64,000 nt of DNA, from positions 62,001 to 126,000 of the forward strand of contig NZ_FXAY01000005.1 in assembly GCF_900177685.1 (NCBI RefSeq), written 5' to 3'. This document shows positions 51,767-63,644 of the stretch, in pieces (the stretch's first letter is position 1; each line of letters starts with the position of its first letter). The notes beneath the pieces were generated by a model, which searched no databases, was not told where the DNA came from, and saw only the letters and a list, made by a program, of their open reading frames with translations. Both the position numbers and the translations under genes were made by a program. The stretch is from Agreia pratensis. Lineage in GTDB: Bacteria > Actinomycetota > Actinomycetes > Actinomycetales > Microbacteriaceae.

Positions 51767-51886
51767 ACGAACTTACTGACGTACTTATCAACGTACTTAT
51801 CAACGTACTTATCAACGTACTTATCAACGAACTTGGCGACGAACTTAACAACGAACTTGGCGACGAACTTAACAACGAACTTATCG
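51767..51886. repeat. Ten 12-bp tandem repeats (iteron array)
   Basis: Ten units in perfect 12-bp phase follow ACG(T/A)ACTT plus four variable bases. Units 2-5 are identical (ACGTACTTATCA); units 6-9 alternate ACGAACTTGGCG and ACGAACTTAACA. The array ends 52 bp before the AlbA-type gene's ATG, so it is probably an operator array or replication-type iteron set. There are no spacers, so it is not CRISPR. Confidence 0.85.
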
Positions 51887-51938: not shown

Positions 51939-53702
51939 ATGGAAGCTGAAGCACTGCGGGGGCTTGTACGTCAGATGAAGGAAATCGGCGGCGAGCCGAC
52001 GGAGATCGAAGCCAAAAGCGGCGCCAGCGGATACCCCAAGTCGGCCGTGGACACGATGGTCGCATTCGCCAACACTTCTGGCGGTGTGATCTTGATCGGC
52101 ATCGACGAAGAGTCCGGATTCAGCATCGTGGGCGTACCCGATCCGGCGCAGTACCGCGACGCGGCAGTAGGACAAGCGCAAGACGCCATCGATCCGCCGA
52201 TCCAGATCGACGTCGAATTCGTCGAACTAGATGGGAAGCAGATCGTCGTCATCGACGTCCCAGAAACGTCCCCCGAGCAGAAGCCAGTCCATCTCAAATC
52301 GAAAGGACCGACCACTGGGGCCCTGATTCGCAGTGGAGACGGCGATCGAAGGATGACTCCAGCTGAGATCGGTTTGCTCTACGCCTCTCGATCTCAGCCG
52401 ATCTTCGACCGAACCCCGGTGCTGCAAGCCTCTGTCGACAATCTCGCCTTCGGAGCCGTTGCCCGCACCTTGGAACGGGTCCGGGCCGGCACTCCGGCGT
52501 TGCGGCAGATGGATGACGAGCGAATGATGCGGCAACTCGGAATCACCGTCGAAACAGACGACGGCGTCTTCCCGACGCTCGGCGGATTCCTCACCTACGC
52601 CGACTTCCCACAGCAATACTTCCCCCAACTAATGGTGTCGTTCGTTGCTTACGGAGATGGAGCGGAGACTGAAACTCGCTTCGTGGACAACCTCACAATT
52701 CGCGGTTCCATCCCCGCGATGGCCGCCGAAGCGGTCGCCGCGGTGCGGAAACACCTCAGCGTGAGAACGGTCGTGACCGGTGACGGGCGCGAGGAGCGGC
52801 TGGAGTACTCCATGACGGCAGTTCGGGAGGCCGTTGTGAATGCCCTGCTCCACCGCGATTACAGCCCAATCACTCAAGGCACGCAGGTCCACATCGAGCT
52901 CTACCCGGATCGGCTAGTGGTCCGCAGCCCCGGAGGGCTGTACGGCCCCATCTCGCCCGACGAACTGGGCAACGAAGGCCTGCTGTCGTCATCCCGAAAC
53001 AGCGTACTGGCGTCACTGCTCTCCGATACCTACCTACCGGGATCAGACCGTCTGGTCGCCGAGAACCGAGCGACGGGCATTCAGACAATGATCCGCGAGG
53101 CAAAAGCTCGCGGACAGAACCGCCCGATTTTCATCTCCACCGTGACCCAGTTCACCGTTTCGATGAGTCACTCTGAGCTTCTTAGCCAAGACACGAGGGC
53201 ATGGCTCAACAAGATCGGCGGGCCGTGGCCGACGCCGACTTATGACATCGCGTTGGCGATGATGCGAGCCGACTACGTTACCAACGAGATGCTCCGGCAA
53301 TGGGGCGTCGACCGTATCGAGGCTGGAGCAGTGTTGCGCGACCTCGTCACCCGCGGAGCGGCCGTGAAAGAAGGTGGGCGCAAATTCGCGCGCTATGTGC
53401 TCTCCACGGAGCTTGCCAAACCCACCGGGGAACGGCCGGCAGATGCACCGATCGTCCAGTCCTTATCAACGACAGCCCTGCCGGTCTCACGCGCCGTGCT
53501 CGAAGGCCGCCGACGGGTGTTGGAACTTCTGCATACCCAGGGGCCCCTGGGGTCTTCCGAGATCAGCACCGCCACCGGACTCCACCGCGGCACCGTCATT
53601 GCCCGGCTGAACGAATTGTTGGACGAAGGGCTCCTCGTCGCGGAGGGGGCACCGCGAAGCCCGAAGCGTCGGTATTCCATGCCGCGCGTAGACGAGGGGT
53701 AG
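51939..53702 (+). CDS. AlbA_2 / ATPase / winged-helix protein (Schlafen-like regulator)
   Basis: A 587-residue protein with three parts. Residues 15-150 are an AlbA_2 (Schlafen AlbA) domain: EIEAKSGASGYPKSAVDTMVAFANTSGGVILIGI. Residues about 270-400 are a GHKL-like ATP-binding module with REAVVNALLHRDYS and VVRSPGGLYGPIS. The C-terminus (about 510-585) is a winged helix ([32 protein letters not shown]). These proteins act as regulators or defence components. The ten-repeat array upstream may be its own binding site. Confidence 0.87.
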   Translation: MEAEALRGLVRQMKEIGGEPTEIEAKSGASGYPKSAVDTMVAFANTSGGVILIGIDEESGFSIVGVPDPAQYRDAAVGQAQDAIDPPIQIDVEFVELDGKQIVVIDVPETSPEQKPVHLKSKGPTTGALIRSGDGDRRMTPAEIGLLYASRSQPIFDRTPVLQASVDNLAFGAVARTLERVRAGTPALRQMDDERMMRQLGITVETDDGVFPTLGGFLTYADFPQQYFPQLMVSFVAYGDGAETETRFVDNLTIRGSIPAMAAEAVAAVRKHLSVRTVVTGDGREERLEYSMTAVREAVVNALLHRDYSPITQGTQVHIELYPDRLVVRSPGGLYGPISPDELGNEGLLSSSRNSVLASLLSDTYLPGSDRLVAENRATGIQTMIREAKARGQNRPIFISTVTQFTVSMSHSELLSQDTRAWLNKIGGPWPTPTYDIALAMMRADYVTNEMLRQWGVDRIEAGAVLRDLVTRGAAVKEGGRKFARYVLSTELAKPTGERPADAPIVQSLSTTALPVSRAVLEGRRRVLELLHTQGPLGSSEISTATGLHRGTVIARLNELLDEGLLVAEGAPRSPKRRYSMPRVDEG

Positions 53703-53797: not shown

Positions 53798-54289
53798 TCA
53801 GCTTTCGACGAGTTCAATCTCATCGATCGCAAAAAGCCGAGTCTCGCCCGTCCACTCGAGGTGAACCCACCACGAAGGTTGGTTCCACGGCTCGGCGTGA
53901 ACCTTCAAGCCCTTCGAGTAGGGAGTCGTGATCGACACCAAATGTCCGCGAAGGTCGATGCTCTTAACGCGGACGAACATTCTGACGGTGTAATCCGGTG
54001 GGGAGATCATGGGGTTCCTTTGATAGTTGGAAGTCGCACTAAGTAATATCGGCCGCATCGTGTTCCAACTCACGAATTCGTCTAGCGTCCCTACTCGGCT
54101 CAGATCCGACAGCCTCCGTTTATGGTCAAGGAGAACCGGGCGACCGACGAGGGCATTGCCAACAAAGCGTAGCCGCGCGGCTACGCTGCCTTCCGGGTAA
54201 TCGTGAACATCGAGGCTCTCTCCAAACGCTCCGCCAGCCGACGAAAGTCGGCGGTGGTCAACGACCTCACCCGAAATGGGGCTGCTCAT
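53798..54289 (-). CDS. Hypothetical island protein
   Basis: About 163 residues, no recognised family, no signal peptide or helix. The C-terminal half is beta-rich (VRMFVRVKSIDLRGHLVSI, SWWVHLEWTGETRLFAIDEIEL). Base and codon use look less GC-biased than outside the island. The start is uncertain: ATG 54289 or GTG 54307. It converges with the AlbA gene and is divergent from the nuclease-like gene. Confidence 0.6.
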   Translation of the reverse strand: MSSPISGEVVDHRRLSSAGGAFGESLDVHDYPEGSVAARLRFVGNALVGRPVLLDHKRRLSDLSRVGTLDEFVSWNTMRPILLSATSNYQRNPMISPPDYTVRMFVRVKSIDLRGHLVSITTPYSKGLKVHAEPWNQPSWWVHLEWTGETRLFAIDEIELVES

Positions 54290-54414
54290 TGTTCCGGGCC
54301 GGGACACGAGCTATCACCGTTCAGATATCGCCCCAGACACATACCCTTCAACCGTGACCCACCTCTACCCTTCGGCAGCTGCACTCATTGGAGCCGCGCG
54401 CGCACCGGATCAAA

Positions 54415-56541
54415 ATGGCGGAAACGTGGAGCGCCAGTCTGGGCGAAGAGCCGATGGACGTCAGCGTCATCGTCAACCCAGACGGCACCGGTCGAATCCT
54501 TGCTCACTCCGTTCTCGGAGCCGAAGCCCGCCGTGAGCTCACCACCCATTTCACAGCCTGCATCAGGGGGCTGTGGGCGACCCTCGACTCACTCGTCAGC
54601 GAGTCCGTCGAAATGTTCAGCGTCTTGAACCGTCCGCGGGACACCGACCGGCCACGGTTCTTCCCCATCGCCGACTCGAACGAGAGCTATCAAAGTCTCC
54701 TCGCCAGGTCCTGTATCGACGGAGTGACCGCAGACCAAGCCCGAATAATCAGCGCCAGTCAGCCCTTCCGCGAACTCCCAGACGGGCACCCCGCCGGACC
54801 GTATCAAGAAGCTCTGCGACGACTCATTAACTGGGGTAACGCAATCGACAACGGGGACCAGGTCGGTGCGTGGGCAACACCGGCAAATCCGCAGATCCTG
54901 GTTCGACCTCCGATGGCCCCCGCTTCGGTGACGATGGCGGAGCCCGGCGAGCTGACCGCGAACTTCACTGTCGCCGACTTCGCGATCTCCGGCTACGTCG
55001 ACGGCGCCAACGTCGAAGGCTTCCCCGGAACGTACGTCGACCTCGGATTCGTGACCGAGTTCCACCCGGACGATCTCGACGACACATTCGACGCCCGCCT
55101 GTCCAGAGTGTTCGACGCCGTGACCGGCTTCATGCTGATGTTCACAGCCATGGCAGAAGCGGTTCCCGGGGCGAAAAAAATCTTGGCACCACCGAAGTAT
55201 GCGACCCGAGAGCACTGGCAAAAGGCCTTCGGAAGTGCCCGGGACTGGACGTCGGGCGACCTCGACGCTCTGTCAGCTAGCGGGCCCGGAATGGGAGTAG
55301 TTACGGATGCGGACGAGTTGACTTTCGTCCTAGCCACAGCGGCCGGAGTTTTCGAAAGGGTTGTCCCCGACGCGACCCCACTCCGCTCGCTGGACCGCAG
55401 CGGGATCGCGGCCGAAATGGCAGTTCAAGATGCCGCTTCCACCTGGGGGCTCCCCGACTTCGTTTTCTCCCCCGTCGTCGAGCAGAAGGGCTCCGGAGTT
55501 CGGGAGATCGGTGACGGCATCCTCGTCGTCGGCAGGCGCGGCGCGATCGTCCAAGTGAAGACGCGGGAGGTCGCCGTCGGAACTCCGGAGCGCGAAGAGT
55601 CGTGGGTGAAGAAGCAGATCGCGATCGCCGGCCGCCAAGTGAAAGGGACAGCGCGACGGATGACCGCCGGCCCGACCGAGATGCAGAACGCTCGCGGTCG
55701 CGCGATCACCGTCGACGGCCCCAACATCGAGTGGGTCGGGGTAGTGATCGTCGAACACCCATCACCGCCGACCATCGACATCGATCCGGTCGAGATCGGA
55801 CTTCCCTACCTCGTCTTGCTGCGCCGCGATTGGGAGTTCCTCTTCAGTCAACTTCGATCAACCTATGCGGTCGTCGACTACCTTCATCGCGTCGCCATGC
55901 CGACCGAGATATTGGGAGAAGAACCTCATCGGTACTTCGAGCTTGCCAAGGCCGACTCCGAAGCCGAACCGCGTTCGACTGATCCGAGGGCTGGAGAGTC
56001 CACAGTCCTACATTCGGTACCGCTCCTTCCCACTGCACCGGTCGGCGACGAAGATCTCGAAGCCCATGAGATCTTGCGTCGACTCCTGGAGGAAATCGCG
56101 AACTCGGAAATTGGAGACGGCGACGAAACGATCCGGCAGCGCGTTCTCGCTTCGATCGACAGTCTCCCGGTCGGGTACAGAACTGATCTCGGCGAATACC
56201 TGCTGAACGCATTGGCAGAACTCCGGTCGAAAGCGCCAGGAACCGCCTTTTGGGCCGCGCGCACATTCCTCAGCGAAGAGGGACACGACCAGCTCGGCTT
56301 CGCCGTCGCGTCGGGATTCAACGAGTCCACCCGCGCGGTCTTCAACCAGTGGCTCGTCGAGAAGCACGACAAGCGGCGCGAGTCCGAGAACATAGACAAC
56401 GCGACTTCGATCGGAGTGTTGATCACACCGAGATCGGACGGATTCCGAGACTGGGACACGTCGATGGCCGCCGTTCACGGTGGTGTTGAGTTGTCCGATG
56501 AAGAGAGAGGCCTTTTCGAGAAGATGTGGACGAGGCGGTAG
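54415..56541 (+). CDS. Large island protein with PD-(D/E)XK nuclease-like core
   Basis: A protein of about 708 residues. The N-terminal 340 residues are unrecognised. The centre reads LPDFVFSPVV then VREIGDGILVVGRRGAIVQVKTREV, a restriction-endonuclease-like strand pair with D367 and Q380-V-K382 (E-x-K replaced by Q-x-K, as in some nucleases). The C-terminal 200 residues are helical and charged. Its position before the methyltransferase suggests a nuclease or effector in a restriction-like system. Start uncertain: TTG 54388, ATG 54415 or ATG 54454. Confidence 0.75.
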   Translation: MAETWSASLGEEPMDVSVIVNPDGTGRILAHSVLGAEARRELTTHFTACIRGLWATLDSLVSESVEMFSVLNRPRDTDRPRFFPIADSNESYQSLLARSCIDGVTADQARIISASQPFRELPDGHPAGPYQEALRRLINWGNAIDNGDQVGAWATPANPQILVRPPMAPASVTMAEPGELTANFTVADFAISGYVDGANVEGFPGTYVDLGFVTEFHPDDLDDTFDARLSRVFDAVTGFMLMFTAMAEAVPGAKKILAPPKYATREHWQKAFGSARDWTSGDLDALSASGPGMGVVTDADELTFVLATAAGVFERVVPDATPLRSLDRSGIAAEMAVQDAASTWGLPDFVFSPVVEQKGSGVREIGDGILVVGRRGAIVQVKTREVAVGTPEREESWVKKQIAIAGRQVKGTARRMTAGPTEMQNARGRAITVDGPNIEWVGVVIVEHPSPPTIDIDPVEIGLPYLVLLRRDWEFLFSQLRSTYAVVDYLHRVAMPTEILGEEPHRYFELAKADSEAEPRSTDPRAGESTVLHSVPLLPTAPVGDEDLEAHEILRRLLEEIANSEIGDGDETIRQRVLASIDSLPVGYRTDLGEYLLNALAELRSKAPGTAFWAARTFLSEEGHDQLGFAVASGFNESTRAVFNQWLVEKHDKRRESENIDNATSIGVLITPRSDGFRDWDTSMAAVHGGVELSDEERGLFEKMWTRR

Positions 56542-56694
56542 CCCGTTCCAGCATCCGTGCGACAAGTCGCCGAGACGCCCCGGACCAATGTCGGCCGCCC
56601 ATGAAATGCTCATCCACGAACAGATAACCCACCGATGACCATTTCTCGATCCGAGTCGTGTCATTCTTTGACTGAAGGGCATCCGACTGCGATC

Positions 56695-56763
56695 ATGAAC
56701 GACGACAAGATTTCGAACACAGCGCGCCTCTATGCGCCGACGTTATCTCGCGTGGAGGAGTAA
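56695..56763 (+). other. 22-codon reading frame or frameshifted methyltransferase N-terminus
   Basis: ATG 56695 opens MNDDKISNTARLYAPTLSRVEE and stops at TAA 56761-56763. Removing one T there would join it smoothly to the methyltransferase frame (…RVEE-KTVGARTIHP). It is either a translated leader before GTG 56768 or the original N-terminus cut off by a frameshift. Confidence 0.4.
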
Positions 56764-56767
56764 GACT

Positions 56768-57955
56768 GTGGGCGCGCGAACAATTCACCCGTTCCCGGCA
56801 CGGATGGCTCCCGAGATCGCTACGGACTATCTGAAAGTCCGTGAAGTCGGCAACAAGACTGCACTGTCGATCCTCGACCCGATGTGTGGATCGGGAACTG
56901 TGCTGTCCGTCGCCGCCGAGCGTGGTCACAACGCCATCGGGTTCGACGTCGACCCGCTCGCCGTGATGATGACCCGTGTCGCCACCCGACCCATCGCCAC
57001 CGACCCGCTGCTCGATCAGGCGGAGCGACTCGTCGCCGCCGCTCAAGCGTCAACCCGTAAGAAAATGCGCTGGGAGGACAAGCAGACCCAGGCATTCGCG
57101 AAGTTCTGGTTCGGCGACAAGCAGCGTGTCGCCCTGAATCGGCTGTCTCTGGGTCTGGACCTCGTCGAAGATGAGGCCGTCCGCGAAACGCTCCAGATCG
57201 CGTTGAGCCGGATCATCGTCACCAAATCGCCGAAGGCTTCCTTGGCTGCCGATACATCTCACAGCCGCCCTCACCGGACCATCCAGAAGTCGACTTACGA
57301 CGTCTACGACGGTTTCCTCCGCTCGGTCAAGGAACTAACCCGCCTCCTCGACAAGCGCGCAATGCCCGGCTCAGCCAAAGCCTTCCGCGGGGACTCCCGT
57401 GGTCTCGCCGACGTCCCGAACAACAGCGTCGACCTCGCCATCACCTCCCCGCCGTATCTCAATGCCATCGACTACCTCCGCGGGCACAAACTGTCCCTCA
57501 TCTGGCTGGGCCACACGATCCCGGAGCTTCGCGACATTCGCTCCAACAGCATCGGCGCCGAGCGCGGGCTCGACGAGATACCCGCTGAACGAGTTCAGAA
57601 CATGGTCGAGGTGATCAAGGCTTCGGCCTCCGACCCCAACGCCCTTCCCCTCCCCACGATCACCCGGTACGCCAAAGACGTCTGCGAGTTCGCGGACGAG
57701 CTGTACCGGGTTTCGCGAACCGGCGCCCAGGTCATAGCGGTGGTCGGCAACTCCTCCCTGAAGGGCAACTTCATCAGCAACGACGGAATGGTCCAGAAGG
57801 CCTTCGACGACGCAGGTTTCACCTTCCAAGAACGTGTCGAGCGGGATCTACCCGAGAACAGCCGGTACATGCCGATCAGCACCAGCGACAGCGCTTCGAG
57901 CATGGCCAAGCGTATGAGAACCGAAGTGGTTCTCACCGTTAAGAAGACCACTTAG
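56768..57955 (+). CDS. DNA amino-methyltransferase (N6-adenine/N4-cytosine type)
   Basis: A 395-residue SAM-dependent methyltransferase. TIHPFPARMAPEIA is followed by AdoMet motif I ILDPMCGSGTVL (D37-G43) and, much later, the catalytic motif IV SPPYLNAIDYLRGHKLSLIWLG (S227-Y230). Methylates an exocyclic amine, N6-A or N4-C. GTG 56768 has a strong GGAGGAG at 7 bp; the longer frame to ATG 56732 lacks one. It is the modification arm of the system with the GHKL-nuclease and Z1 genes. Confidence 0.87.
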   Translation: MGARTIHPFPARMAPEIATDYLKVREVGNKTALSILDPMCGSGTVLSVAAERGHNAIGFDVDPLAVMMTRVATRPIATDPLLDQAERLVAAAQASTRKKMRWEDKQTQAFAKFWFGDKQRVALNRLSLGLDLVEDEAVRETLQIALSRIIVTKSPKASLAADTSHSRPHRTIQKSTYDVYDGFLRSVKELTRLLDKRAMPGSAKAFRGDSRGLADVPNNSVDLAITSPPYLNAIDYLRGHKLSLIWLGHTIPELRDIRSNSIGAERGLDEIPAERVQNMVEVIKASASDPNALPLPTITRYAKDVCEFADELYRVSRTGAQVIAVVGNSSLKGNFISNDGMVQKAFDDAGFTFQERVERDLPENSRYMPISTSDSASSMAKRMRTEVVLTVKKTT

Positions 57956-58036
57956 CGGCCTTCGCGAACGTCGACTGTCTGCTCCTTCGATGCTTGGCAT
58001 CGCCGCGGGGCGGTGGACGGCTCTAGGGTGATCCCT

Positions 58037-60601
58037 ATGAGCCTTGCCACTTCGGCCTTCTACGAAGCCGGGTCGATCACCGACCACATCAATGTCGAGA
58101 TCAGCTTCCAAGCCATTAAGTTGTTCTCCGAAGGCCTTTACAGCAGCCCGAACAAGGCGATCGAAGAGCTCGTCTCGAACGCGTTCGATGCTGACGCCAC
58201 CTGCGTGCACACCGTGATGTCGGCGGACCGCGCCTCTGCGGACGCTTCGATCGCGATTCTCGACAACGGGACGGGGATGGACTCCAACGGGCTGAAGGTC
58301 CACTGGATTGTCGGCGAATCAGCGAAGAGCCAGAACCGGGTGACCGGCAAAGGGCGCCGCACGATCGGGAAGTTCGGAATCGGAAAGCTCGCCGCCTACG
58401 TCCTCGGAGACCGCCTCACCCACCTCACGAAATCCGACGGCAAGTACTACTCAACGTCGATGGACTTCACCGTCATCCCACCCTCCGGTTCCGCAGCCGG
58501 GCGCACTGCAGCGACAAGCGCCGATCCGGTAAGCCCCGTCCAGCTCGACCTCCGCGAACTCACCGAGCAGGAAGCCCGCGAGGCGGCCGGCGCCTGGCTG
58601 ACTGACGCAAACGGCCGCCCTGGACTGCAGCTCTTCGGCGACGGCGCCGAGGATAGCTGGACCATCGCGATCATCACCGACCTCAAGGAGATGGCCACGG
58701 ATCTCTCCGTCGGAACGCTCCGATGGGTGCTCGCCACCGCCATGCCGCTCCGGGATGACTTTGCGCTCTACCTCAACGGCAAGCCGGTCGATCCGTCGAA
58801 AGCCGGAGTGGACAAAATCGGGACGTACACGATCGGCAGCGACATCCTAAAAATCCCCCAGCCGGCGCCTCAGGAACTCGAGGTCGAACTCAACGAAGAT
58901 TTCGATGAAAGCGACTACCACCACTGGTCGCTCACGGACTCGGTGCTCGGCCCTGTCACCGGGTACCTGGACGTTTTCCAAGATCCCATCGACTCCGGCA
59001 AGTCGGAGAACATCGGTCGAAGCAATGGCTTCTTCGTCTACGTGAACGGGCGCCTCATCAATGAGGAAGACGCCGGATTCGGAATCGACCGCAACAGCCT
59101 CAGACACGGAACGTTCTCACGCTTCCGTTTGGTGATCAACCTCGACCGGCTCGACGAAGAACTCCGATCATCTCGGGAAACCCTTCGCGCCGGCGCTCCC
59201 GTCGAGCGCGCCCGCGAAATACTCCGCGGTCTCTTCAATCTGGCCCGAGCGAAGCTCGAATCGTTCGAAGCCGCCCAGGACCTTGAACGTCGCGCTTCCC
59301 AGCGATTTGCTGACAGCCCCGCCAGCCTCACGGAGCGCCCGCTTCTACGAATGGCTGTCGACTCCTACACCGAGCGATACCAGCCCCGTCATATCGTGCC
59401 CATCGACAAGACTGCGTACCCCACCGAGGAAGCGCTCGTCGAACACATCGAGGAACGCATCGAGTCCGGTGCTGGCCTGATCGGCGAAGTCGTCTACGAA
59501 GACATCGGAACGCTCGTGCCGATGGCGGTCCTCGATGCGACCACCGGCAAGCTTTCCATCAATCTCGACCACCCCTTCGTCGCCCACTTCTCCGACGAGT
59601 TCAACGACCCCAAGAAGAATCTCCCGCTCGAGCTGTTTGCCGCAGCCGAGGTGCTTCTCGAAGCCGAACTGAACGACGCGAACATCGGCCCGTCCGCCGT
59701 ATCGTCCGTTCTCGACCAACGCGACGCCCTCCTGCGCCACCTAGCCCGGTCATCGGGCGCCCGGAACTCGCTCACCGTTGCTCAAGCGCTGCTGAACGCA
59801 GTCTCCAGCGCGAAAGGTCTAGAGCTGGCAGTGGTCGACGCCTTCCAACAGCTGGGCTTCGAAGCAATCCACAAAGCCAAGACAGGCGAAGCGGACGGAC
59901 TTGCCGAAGCGCACCTTTCCGCGTCCGAGACCGGTCGGCAGCGCAGCTACCGGGTATCGCTTGAGGCCAAGAGCAAAGAGAAAGCGGGCGCGAAGGTCAA
60001 GAAGAGCGCTGTCGAAGTTTCGACGATCGTCCGTCATCGGGACGACTTGAACTGCCAGTACGCGCTCGTCGTCGGGCCGGATTTCGAGACCGGAGCTGAC
60101 AATCTGGGAGCGGTCGTCCGAGAAATCCAAACGGATCTCCTCGCCCATCCCGACAAGCGGATCACCCTTATGAGGGTCCGTGACCTCGCGCGACTAGTCC
60201 GCATCTCTCCCGCCAAACGGTTGGATCTTGAGGTGCTCAGCCACCTCTTCCTCACCTGCCAGACTCCGGACGAAGCCGCGGAATGGGTGGATGCTCTCGA
60301 GCAGTCGTCGCCGCCGCCGAGCCCACACCCGCAGATCGTCGAAATGGTCTGGGAGTTGCAGCAGGAGGTCAAGGACCACACCGTCCAATACCCGGCCTTG
60401 ATGACGGCCCTCCGCTATAAGAAAAACTTGACGATCTCAGAACATGACCTGAAGTCCGAGTGTCTCGCGTTGAGTCGTATGGCGCCCAACCAATTCGTCG
60501 CCCTCGACGACCGGGTGGAGCTGAACATCAAGCCGGAAACCTTGCTCGCAACCATCCACGCCTATATCGACGCCCTGCCGGACCTTGACGAAGAGCAGTA
60601 G
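58037..60601 (+). CDS. GHKL (MutL/MORC-like) ATPase fused to PD-(D/E)XK nuclease domain
   Basis: An 854-residue two-part protein. N-terminal GHKL ATPase: KAIEELVSNAFDADA with N48, DNGTGMD at 76-82, GKFGIGKLAAYVLG, then a MutL-like transducer region. The C-terminal part (about 585-720) is a restriction-endonuclease fold: LAVVDAFQQLGFEAIHKAKTGEADG with D620, then RVSLEAKSKEK with E643-A-K645, and YALVVGPDF. ATP-driven clamp plus nuclease in one chain suits a restriction effector. AGGG precedes ATG 58037. Confidence 0.88.
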   Translation: MSLATSAFYEAGSITDHINVEISFQAIKLFSEGLYSSPNKAIEELVSNAFDADATCVHTVMSADRASADASIAILDNGTGMDSNGLKVHWIVGESAKSQNRVTGKGRRTIGKFGIGKLAAYVLGDRLTHLTKSDGKYYSTSMDFTVIPPSGSAAGRTAATSADPVSPVQLDLRELTEQEAREAAGAWLTDANGRPGLQLFGDGAEDSWTIAIITDLKEMATDLSVGTLRWVLATAMPLRDDFALYLNGKPVDPSKAGVDKIGTYTIGSDILKIPQPAPQELEVELNEDFDESDYHHWSLTDSVLGPVTGYLDVFQDPIDSGKSENIGRSNGFFVYVNGRLINEEDAGFGIDRNSLRHGTFSRFRLVINLDRLDEELRSSRETLRAGAPVERAREILRGLFNLARAKLESFEAAQDLERRASQRFADSPASLTERPLLRMAVDSYTERYQPRHIVPIDKTAYPTEEALVEHIEERIESGAGLIGEVVYEDIGTLVPMAVLDATTGKLSINLDHPFVAHFSDEFNDPKKNLPLELFAAAEVLLEAELNDANIGPSAVSSVLDQRDALLRHLARSSGARNSLTVAQALLNAVSSAKGLELAVVDAFQQLGFEAIHKAKTGEADGLAEAHLSASETGRQRSYRVSLEAKSKEKAGAKVKKSAVEVSTIVRHRDDLNCQYALVVGPDFETGADNLGAVVREIQTDLLAHPDKRITLMRVRDLARLVRISPAKRLDLEVLSHLFLTCQTPDEAAEWVDALEQSSPPPSPHPQIVEMVWELQQEVKDHTVQYPALMTALRYKKNLTISEHDLKSECLALSRMAPNQFVALDDRVELNIKPETLLATIHAYIDALPDLDEEQ

Positions 60602-60603
60602 GT

Positions 60604-61122
60604 CTACGCCTGCATCGGCCGACGCTTGACCGAGCGGACGAGGGCGTCGTGGAATGGCACCTCTGGATAGTTCGAGTGGGTGAACCGGTGCCAGCGCGAC
60701 GGGTGCAAGGGCCGTCCTCCGACGGTCCAGACCGGAAGGTTTCGGGCGTCAATCAGTTTCTCGGCCCAACTGATTTGCTCGCGGAAGTGCATCCGCGCCT
60801 GTCCCGCCGGCTCTTGACCGCCATACGCGAGCATCACCGCTGTGCAACGGTCCATCGCATCGACGATCGCCGGTCGAGCGTCCAGCCAACCATCCGCATC
60901 GACTCCGGCCTCGGAGATTTCGCCGGTGCGGTAAGTCGGTATCGAGAACAAGTTCGCCGTCACCGTTTCTTCGATTCCGACCAGCGTCTGCAGCAACTCC
61001 ACTCGACGGCGCGTGCGATCGCCAGTCGTAGTCGAGGGCGGGTTCGACATCAGGACGAGGAGAATTGTGCCCGGCTGAGACAGCGCGTGCGCCGGGTTCT
61101 CGGACAGTTTGGATTCGCCCAC
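60604..61122 (-). CDS. DUF1643-like protein
   Basis: A 172-residue protein matching the DUF1643 pattern: ILLVLMSNPPSTTTGDRTRRRVELLQTLVGIEETVTANLFSIPTYRT, then VMLAYGGQEPAGQAR, and the closing RPLHPSRW. Function unknown; the family is frequent in phage and defence regions. It lies on the opposite strand, tail-to-tail with the GHKL gene (2 bp) and back-to-back with the Z1 gene. Start GTG 61122. Confidence 0.75.
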   Translation of the reverse strand: MGESKLSENPAHALSQPGTILLVLMSNPPSTTTGDRTRRRVELLQTLVGIEETVTANLFSIPTYRTGEISEAGVDADGWLDARPAIVDAMDRCTAVMLAYGGQEPAGQARMHFREQISWAEKLIDARNLPVWTVGGRPLHPSRWHRFTHSNYPEVPFHDALVRSVKRRPMQA

Positions 61123-61298
61123 ACCTGAGGTTACTCAACCGGGGGGGCGCTCGGCGGAATAACCGTGACGACGCGTCGCGATAATCATAATTTGGGGCAT
61201 AATGTCCCTTGCCCGGCCTGCGAGACGACGTCTCCAGAGATGGCCGGGCGACGGACATCCGAGGACGAGCCCGCGCCTTCGGCACGAGAGGATCAAGG

Positions 61299-63206
61299 AT
61301 GACCACCACCGCGAATGACTTCGACATAAACGACTTTCTGGGTGCCGAGATTGAGCACTCCAAAGTCGGCCGGCTCGCCCGCCAGTACGGCCGCATCACG
61401 GACAAGGGCCAGAGCACCGAAAGCATCAAGTCGGCCGTCGACGCGGCGATCGAGAACATCCAGGTCCACAGAGCCCGGTCGTTCGTCATCTACGGGGAGC
61501 CGCAGAGCGGCAAGACAGAGATGATGATCGCTTTGACTGCTGCGCTCCTCGACGTCGGCAAGCGGATCATCATCGTTCTCACCAACGACAGCGTTCAACT
61601 GCTCGAGCAGAACATCACTCGCTTCCAGCACTCCGGCCTCGACCCAGCCCCGAAGAATTTCTCCGAAATCCTCGACCCGGCAGTGAAGATCACCGGCCGC
61701 GACTGGGTCATCTTCTCGAAGAAGAACCAGAGCGACCTAGACAAGCTCTTGCAGAAGATCTCCAAGCACCCGAACCGCGTGATCATCGACGACGAGGCCG
61801 ACTACGCGACGCCGAACGGGAAGGTCAACCGTGCCGAGAAGACGCGGATCAACGACCTTGTTGAGAAGCTGATCGGTGCGGACGGAATTTACATCGGAGT
61901 CACCGCGACCCCGGCGCGCCTCGACTTGAACGCCACGTTCGAGAATGAGAACACCCGGTGGGTAGACTTCCCGCCTCATCCCTTCTATACCGGCCAGGAC
62001 GTGTTCTTCCCGACGACGAAGGAGGGGATGGACAACCTCCAGTACGGGTTGATCCGAATGCCCGACAGCCGCGACGATGCGAAGTATCTGCGGGAAGCGT
62101 TGCTCAGCTTCTTGGTGAATGTCGCATTCCTGAACCTCACCGGGCAGCGCCCCGGCAACTACTCGCTGCTAATCCACACCAGCGGCAAGAAGGCTGACCA
62201 CACCGTCGACTACGAGGCGGTGACGAAGATCTTCGGGATCCTCGCCGACGCAACATCAACCAAGTATGAGGCGACGACGCGCGAGCTCTTCGACCTGGCC
62301 AAGGGACGGTACGGTGATCTCGCCACGGAACTCACGCGCTTCGTGCTGCGGTCGATCAACCAGAACAACGTCGTTGTCATGAACAGCAACTCGGACCGGT
62401 CGCAGTCCAGTTACGCCAAGGTGACCACCCCCGCGGCTCTGTTCACTGTGGCCATCGGCGGCAACATCGTCTCCCGCGGCGTCACCTTCGACAACCTACT
62501 GTCCATGTTCTTCACCCGCGACTCCGCTCACAAGATTCAGCAGGACACCTACATCCAGCGCGCCCGGATGTTCGGAAGCCGCGGGGCGTACCTGGAGAGC
62601 TTCGAGCTGTACATCCCCGGCTCCCTCTACGACGACTGGCAGCGGTGCTTCGTTTTTCACAAGCTGTCTCTTCGCCAGATTCGGAGCGGATCCGGAGCTC
62701 CGCTGTGGCTGCAGGACAACCGTATCCAACCTGCGACGACCGCGAGCGTGAAGCTCTCTGCTGTCGACTGGCAGAGCGGAGAGATGACCTGGGAAATCTT
62801 CGAGCTCTCTCCTGACGTGGAGAAGATCATCGGGACCGGCGGCACCGGCATCAAACTGGTCAAGGCTCTGGCTGCCGCCGTGGGCAACGACGCGCTCCCC
62901 GACCACCTTGTCGAGTTCATCGAGAACTTCAGCCTCCACGGTTCGGAGTCCGTCGCTGTCCACCCGACCCGGCTCATCACAGCGAGCTATAAAACGGCGG
63001 ACCCGGAAACCATCACCCGGGCGAAGGGCTTCATCGGGGCCAAGGAGATCGAGCGGGACGTCTACCCCCGCGCGATTCATCACCTCATGCTCTTCTCCAA
63101 CGAGAAGGGGAATGCGCGCGTTTACTACAAGTACGCGCCGGCGGCGAACGACCCCAATGTCAACAGCCGCCGCCTGGCTTTCGTCGGGCGGAACGCGACC
63201 GTCTAG
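61299..63206 (+). CDS. Z1-domain superfamily II helicase-like protein
   Basis: A 635-residue Z1 protein. Walker A GEPQSGKT (66-73), motif II D164-DEAD (IIDDEAD), motif III VTATP (201-205), and late motifs GGNIVSRGVTF and QQDTYIQRARMFGSR. Z1 proteins accompany MutL/MORC-type ATPases and methyltransferases in predicted restriction-modification systems. ATG 61299 has GAGAGG upstream; the earlier codons are not needed. The next gene starts immediately after its stop. Confidence 0.9.
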   Translation: MTTTANDFDINDFLGAEIEHSKVGRLARQYGRITDKGQSTESIKSAVDAAIENIQVHRARSFVIYGEPQSGKTEMMIALTAALLDVGKRIIIVLTNDSVQLLEQNITRFQHSGLDPAPKNFSEILDPAVKITGRDWVIFSKKNQSDLDKLLQKISKHPNRVIIDDEADYATPNGKVNRAEKTRINDLVEKLIGADGIYIGVTATPARLDLNATFENENTRWVDFPPHPFYTGQDVFFPTTKEGMDNLQYGLIRMPDSRDDAKYLREALLSFLVNVAFLNLTGQRPGNYSLLIHTSGKKADHTVDYEAVTKIFGILADATSTKYEATTRELFDLAKGRYGDLATELTRFVLRSINQNNVVVMNSNSDRSQSSYAKVTTPAALFTVAIGGNIVSRGVTFDNLLSMFFTRDSAHKIQQDTYIQRARMFGSRGAYLESFELYIPGSLYDDWQRCFVFHKLSLRQIRSGSGAPLWLQDNRIQPATTASVKLSAVDWQSGEMTWEIFELSPDVEKIIGTGGTGIKLVKALAAAVGNDALPDHLVEFIENFSLHGSESVAVHPTRLITASYKTADPETITRAKGFIGAKEIERDVYPRAIHHLMLFSNEKGNARVYYKYAPAANDPNVNSRRLAFVGRNATV

Positions 63207-63644
63207 GTGATCGGGGAAAAGCTCCGTTACCACGGCGTCGCGCTGGCCCGCCTCGTCGCCGAGGCGGGCCAGGAGGTGACGATTCACGCGCTCAAGGACA
63301 GGTCCCACTGCGCCTATGCCGTCAACGACGACGTCATCTTCGTGAAGTACTCCACGAGTCGCCTCAGCCCGTGGAGGTTCGCCTTTTCCGACGACCAGCG
63401 CGCGGAGTTGGAAGAGCTGGCCTGCGAATACCCGGCGGTCTGGATCGTTCTCGTGTGCGGCCCCGAAGGGGTGCTGACGATCCCGTGGGCGGATGTGTTG
63501 ACCGAGTTGCTGGGGGAGAACGACGAAGGCGCGTTCTCCCTGCAGGCGTCGCGGAAGCGGGGAGAGAAGTTCCGGCTGTCCGGTATTTGGGATGCACCGC
63601 TGGTCATTTCCGAGAAGGATTTCCCATCGCGGCTCTTCGATTAG
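63207..63644 (+). CDS. Small Z1-linked hypothetical protein
   Basis: A 145-residue protein whose GTG start abuts the Z1 stop, so translation is coupled. It has a compact alpha/beta look: VIFVKYSTSRLSPWRFAFSDDQRAELEEL, WIVLVCGPEGVLTIPWADVLTELL, and FRLSGIWDAPLVISEKDFPSRLF. No PD-(D/E)XK catalytic set is evident. I do not recognise it; co-occurrence with Z1 suggests a partner subunit. Confidence 0.72.
   Translation: MIGEKLRYHGVALARLVAEAGQEVTIHALKDRSHCAYAVNDDVIFVKYSTSRLSPWRFAFSDDQRAELEELACEYPAVWIVLVCGPEGVLTIPWADVLTELLGENDEGAFSLQASRKRGEKFRLSGIWDAPLVISEKDFPSRLFD

Follow-up and report, generated by a model that had tools for sequence, protein, structure and literature searches.

A probable modular MORC-like restriction system with a helicase in Agreia pratensis

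What kind of system is formed by the neighbouring genes of a DNA methyltransferase, a GHKL ATPase and a helicase in Agreia pratensis? The window analysed is a stretch of 64,000 nucleotides (GCF_900177685.1, contig NZ_FXAY01000005.1, positions 62,001-126,000, forward strand), and the cluster in it represents, in variant form, a kind of system that was predicted in 2008, with the helicase and a small nuclease-like partner (s145) as additions; s145 is apparently dead and has no match to a named family. It is probably a modular MORC-like restriction system with a helicase, in which own DNA is marked and unmarked foreign DNA is cut by an ATP-driven nuclease. The original prediction, which saw a possible distinct subtype here, is partly confirmed in its observations and partly supported in its interpretation.

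In predicted restriction-modification operons, paraMORC3 proteins combine a GHKL and S5 ATPase with a fused C-terminal nuclease of the restriction-endonuclease fold with E-D-ExK, and their genes lie in restriction-modification-type neighbourhoods with methylases and superfamily 2 helicases (Iyer, Abhiman and Aravind 2008, PMC2292703). The window protein, here called paraMORC3, likewise has GHKL and a predicted fused E-D-ExK nuclease, with methyltransferase and helicase genes near. Its GHKL ATPase (residues ~1-160) and a possibly S5-like region (~205-380) are followed by a helical linker, a PD-(D/E)XK nuclease (~578-713), and finally helices and two short strands; because of secondary structure only, the helices and short strands at 764-829 could be a winged helix.

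A search of genome contigs with three aligned GHKL proteins gave 107 confirmed loci, of which the 80 best, spread over many phyla, were kept; the alignment comprises 52 members, the window protein and 51 of 70 full-length GHKL proteins. PF13589 is matched in 52/52, and the ATP-binding motifs are intact (D76, G78 and G114-G116 in 52/52, N48 in 51/52 with one gap). In the AlphaFold2 model (predicted local distance difference test 83.9, predicted template-modelling score, pTM, 0.49), the ATPase half resembles Hsp90/TRAP1, MORC2, MORC3 and MORC4 structures by Foldseek, and for the S5 region there are matches to MORC2/MORC3 ATPase modules over ~436-522 columns, with template-modelling (TM) scores of 0.24-0.27 by query at a model pTM of 0.49.

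The C-terminus is predicted to be an E-D-ExK nuclease of the restriction-endonuclease fold with D/E exchange at 620 and 643: E596 and K645 are kept in 52/52, position 620 is D in 45/52 and E in 7/52, and position 643 is E in 32/52 and D in 20/52. The modelled order at 592-680 (helix 592-606; strands 609-612, 621-627 and 636-644; helix 661-670; strand 675-680) is the alpha-beta-beta-beta-alpha-beta order of the restriction-endonuclease core, and places the predicted catalytic residues on helix, strand and strand. The earlier claim of a nuclease fused to the GHKL chain (D620, E643, K645), which was staked on this C-terminus having a nuclease fold, agrees with alignment and model. Mrr_cat is matched by 5/52 members at E 0.01; when five C-terminal parts were scanned alone, Mrr_cat was found in one (E 0.0056), FokI_cleav_dom in two (E ~0.01), NA-iREase1 in two (E 0.02-0.03) and nothing in one, with two matches in L113, and no family match among these five was above its cut-off.

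The methyltransferase matches PADLOC MTase_II (E 4.6e-31) and Pfam N6_N4_Mtase (E 3.9e-6), with motif I DPMCGSGT (49) and motif IV TSPPYLNAIDY (from 238); the (T/S)SPPY motif presumably indicates an amino-methyltransferase forming N4-methylcytosine or N6-methyladenine, and the ~180 residues between the motifs could give room for a target-recognition region. In 67/81 loci GHKL has a methyltransferase gene of this family no more than 500 bp away, in 59/67 on the same strand; the near-copies L076 and L049 are both kept in these counts, as are L072 and its copy L081. In eight of the other 14 (L073, L082, L086 with the methyltransferase gene at 549 bp, L094, L102, L109, L123, L126), the locus breaks off, on one side or both, no more than 2.4 kb from GHKL. 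Where both flanks are present, it lies at 2849 bp in L055 and at 587 bp in L114, and none of the window gene's family is found in L096, L111, L118 and L120; in L120 a different N6_N4 methyltransferase adjoins GHKL. For the trees, L044 (the window itself) and L081 (a copy of L072) were left out, L041 gave no methyltransferase row, and the GHKL tree kept 75 rows after those of up to 700 residues had been dropped.

The helicase matches PF10593 (E 5.6e-25) and PADLOC Helicase_II (E 9.6e-42), and its motifs are invariant in a 7-sequence alignment. Of the proposed set, methyltransferase, GHKL ATPase and Z1 helicase all have family matches, but the Q-x-K protein (Q708) is probably not part of it.

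Other GHKL and restriction systems resemble the cluster in part. The GHKL restriction enzymes BbrUII/HgiDII (NF050001) share the N-terminal GHKL ATPase, which is the one stretch matched (residues 28-159, counted from the GTG start; E 1.2e-18); the match scores 67.1 bits, where the cut-off is 550. GHKL-Shedu VcSduA (PMC12137116) also fuses GHKL to a PD-(D/E)XK nuclease, there of DUF4263, whereas the 52 members match 7 families at E 0.01, none of them DUF4263, and the window protein has a paired methyltransferase. CglI and NgoAVII (PMC4267653, PMC5737866) have a PLD + B3 nuclease subunit, and no RE_NgoFVII match was found in any of 8 window proteins scanned. Of MZA, MzaB reached 21.5 of 850 bits and MzaC 41 of 1500, far from the curated cut-offs.

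Could s145 be catalytically active as a structure-specific nuclease like Hjc or RecU, which would give the system two nucleases? For its confident model, Hjc accounts for 14 of the 17 top-ranked PDB matches (best E 7.9e-3, probability 1.00, TM 0.46), RecU of Pfam is weakly matched by 1/8 members (E 0.02), K47 is invariant and residue 4 is acidic in 7/8. However, none of the PDB matches is below E 0.001, and YTH domains appear from rank 18 on. Hjc/RecU resolvases have a conserved catalytic E-D-ExK, which s145 (145 residues) lacks: the ExK Glu is replaced by Tyr or Phe in 8/8 while the Lys is kept in 8/8, position 40 is Asn in 7/8, and no acidic residue is common to all 8. Profile comparison found no kinship to the fused nuclease or to the compared DUF4420 protein, which has 340 residues and an EVK. 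A second active nuclease is thus unlikely. Even less probable, indeed hardly to be expected, is that the whole 51.7-63.7 kb stretch forms a single defence system that includes a Schlafen-like protein, Q708 and DUF1643, an idea implied in the original prediction: at E 1e-3 the 80 GHKL loci contain no homologue of either Q708 or DUF1643, and Q708 homologues lie apart from the methyltransferase-GHKL core on Streptomyces plasmids (four regions opened). Q708 is probably an independent island gene. The DUF1643 search did give a PF07799 match, but at 19.8 bits it is below the cut-off; homologues of this open reading frame are on five Arthrobacter-group plasmids, in the one opened near two other DNA methyltransferase genes.

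Features of the cluster and its flanks (window positions)
Feature	Position	Strand	Basis
Q708, conserved VQ(V/I)K	54415..56541	+	
Amino-DNA-methyltransferase, 407 aa	56732..57955	+	PADLOC MTase_II, Pfam N6_N4_Mtase, motifs
paraMORC3, 854 aa from ATG 58037 (GTG 58013 also possible)	58037..60601	+	PF13589, AlphaFold2 model, Foldseek
Predicted catalytic residues of fused nuclease: E596, D620, E643, K645	59822..59971	+	alignment, model
DUF1643-like open reading frame	60604..61122	-	PF07799 below cut-off
Helicase	61299..63206	+	PF10593, PADLOC Helicase_II
Further cluster part	63207..63644	+	

In L049, L050 and L076, which are the window's closest GHKL relatives and whose methyltransferases are 58-61% identical to that of the window, methyltransferase and paraMORC3 are followed by a protein of 220-233 residues with MPDG...VEVT (L049:12628-13326, L050:4799-5458, L076:12628-13326); the one member scanned had no Pfam match above cut-off, and it could be another small nuclease-fold partner. 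After s145, on the same strand, lies the gene of a 531-residue protein that has an endonuclease domain of NucS_C (E 5.2e-12; L044:14020-15612), in the window frame at 64019-65611 and thus past the window end.

Near the variable island's left edge, 51939-53702 encodes a Schlafen AlbA_2 + HATPase_c_4 + winged-helix protein, and between this gene and Q708 lies a 169-residue open reading frame (53798-54307, minus strand) for which Pfam, PADLOC and NCBIfam all gave no family match. At 51767-51885, 54 bp upstream of the Schlafen-like gene, there are ~10 copies of a 12-bp unit with the consensus ACGAACTTATCA; a pattern of nearly two units with up to 2 mismatches has its whole-genome matches inside the array only, and the array is possibly an operator array of this gene.
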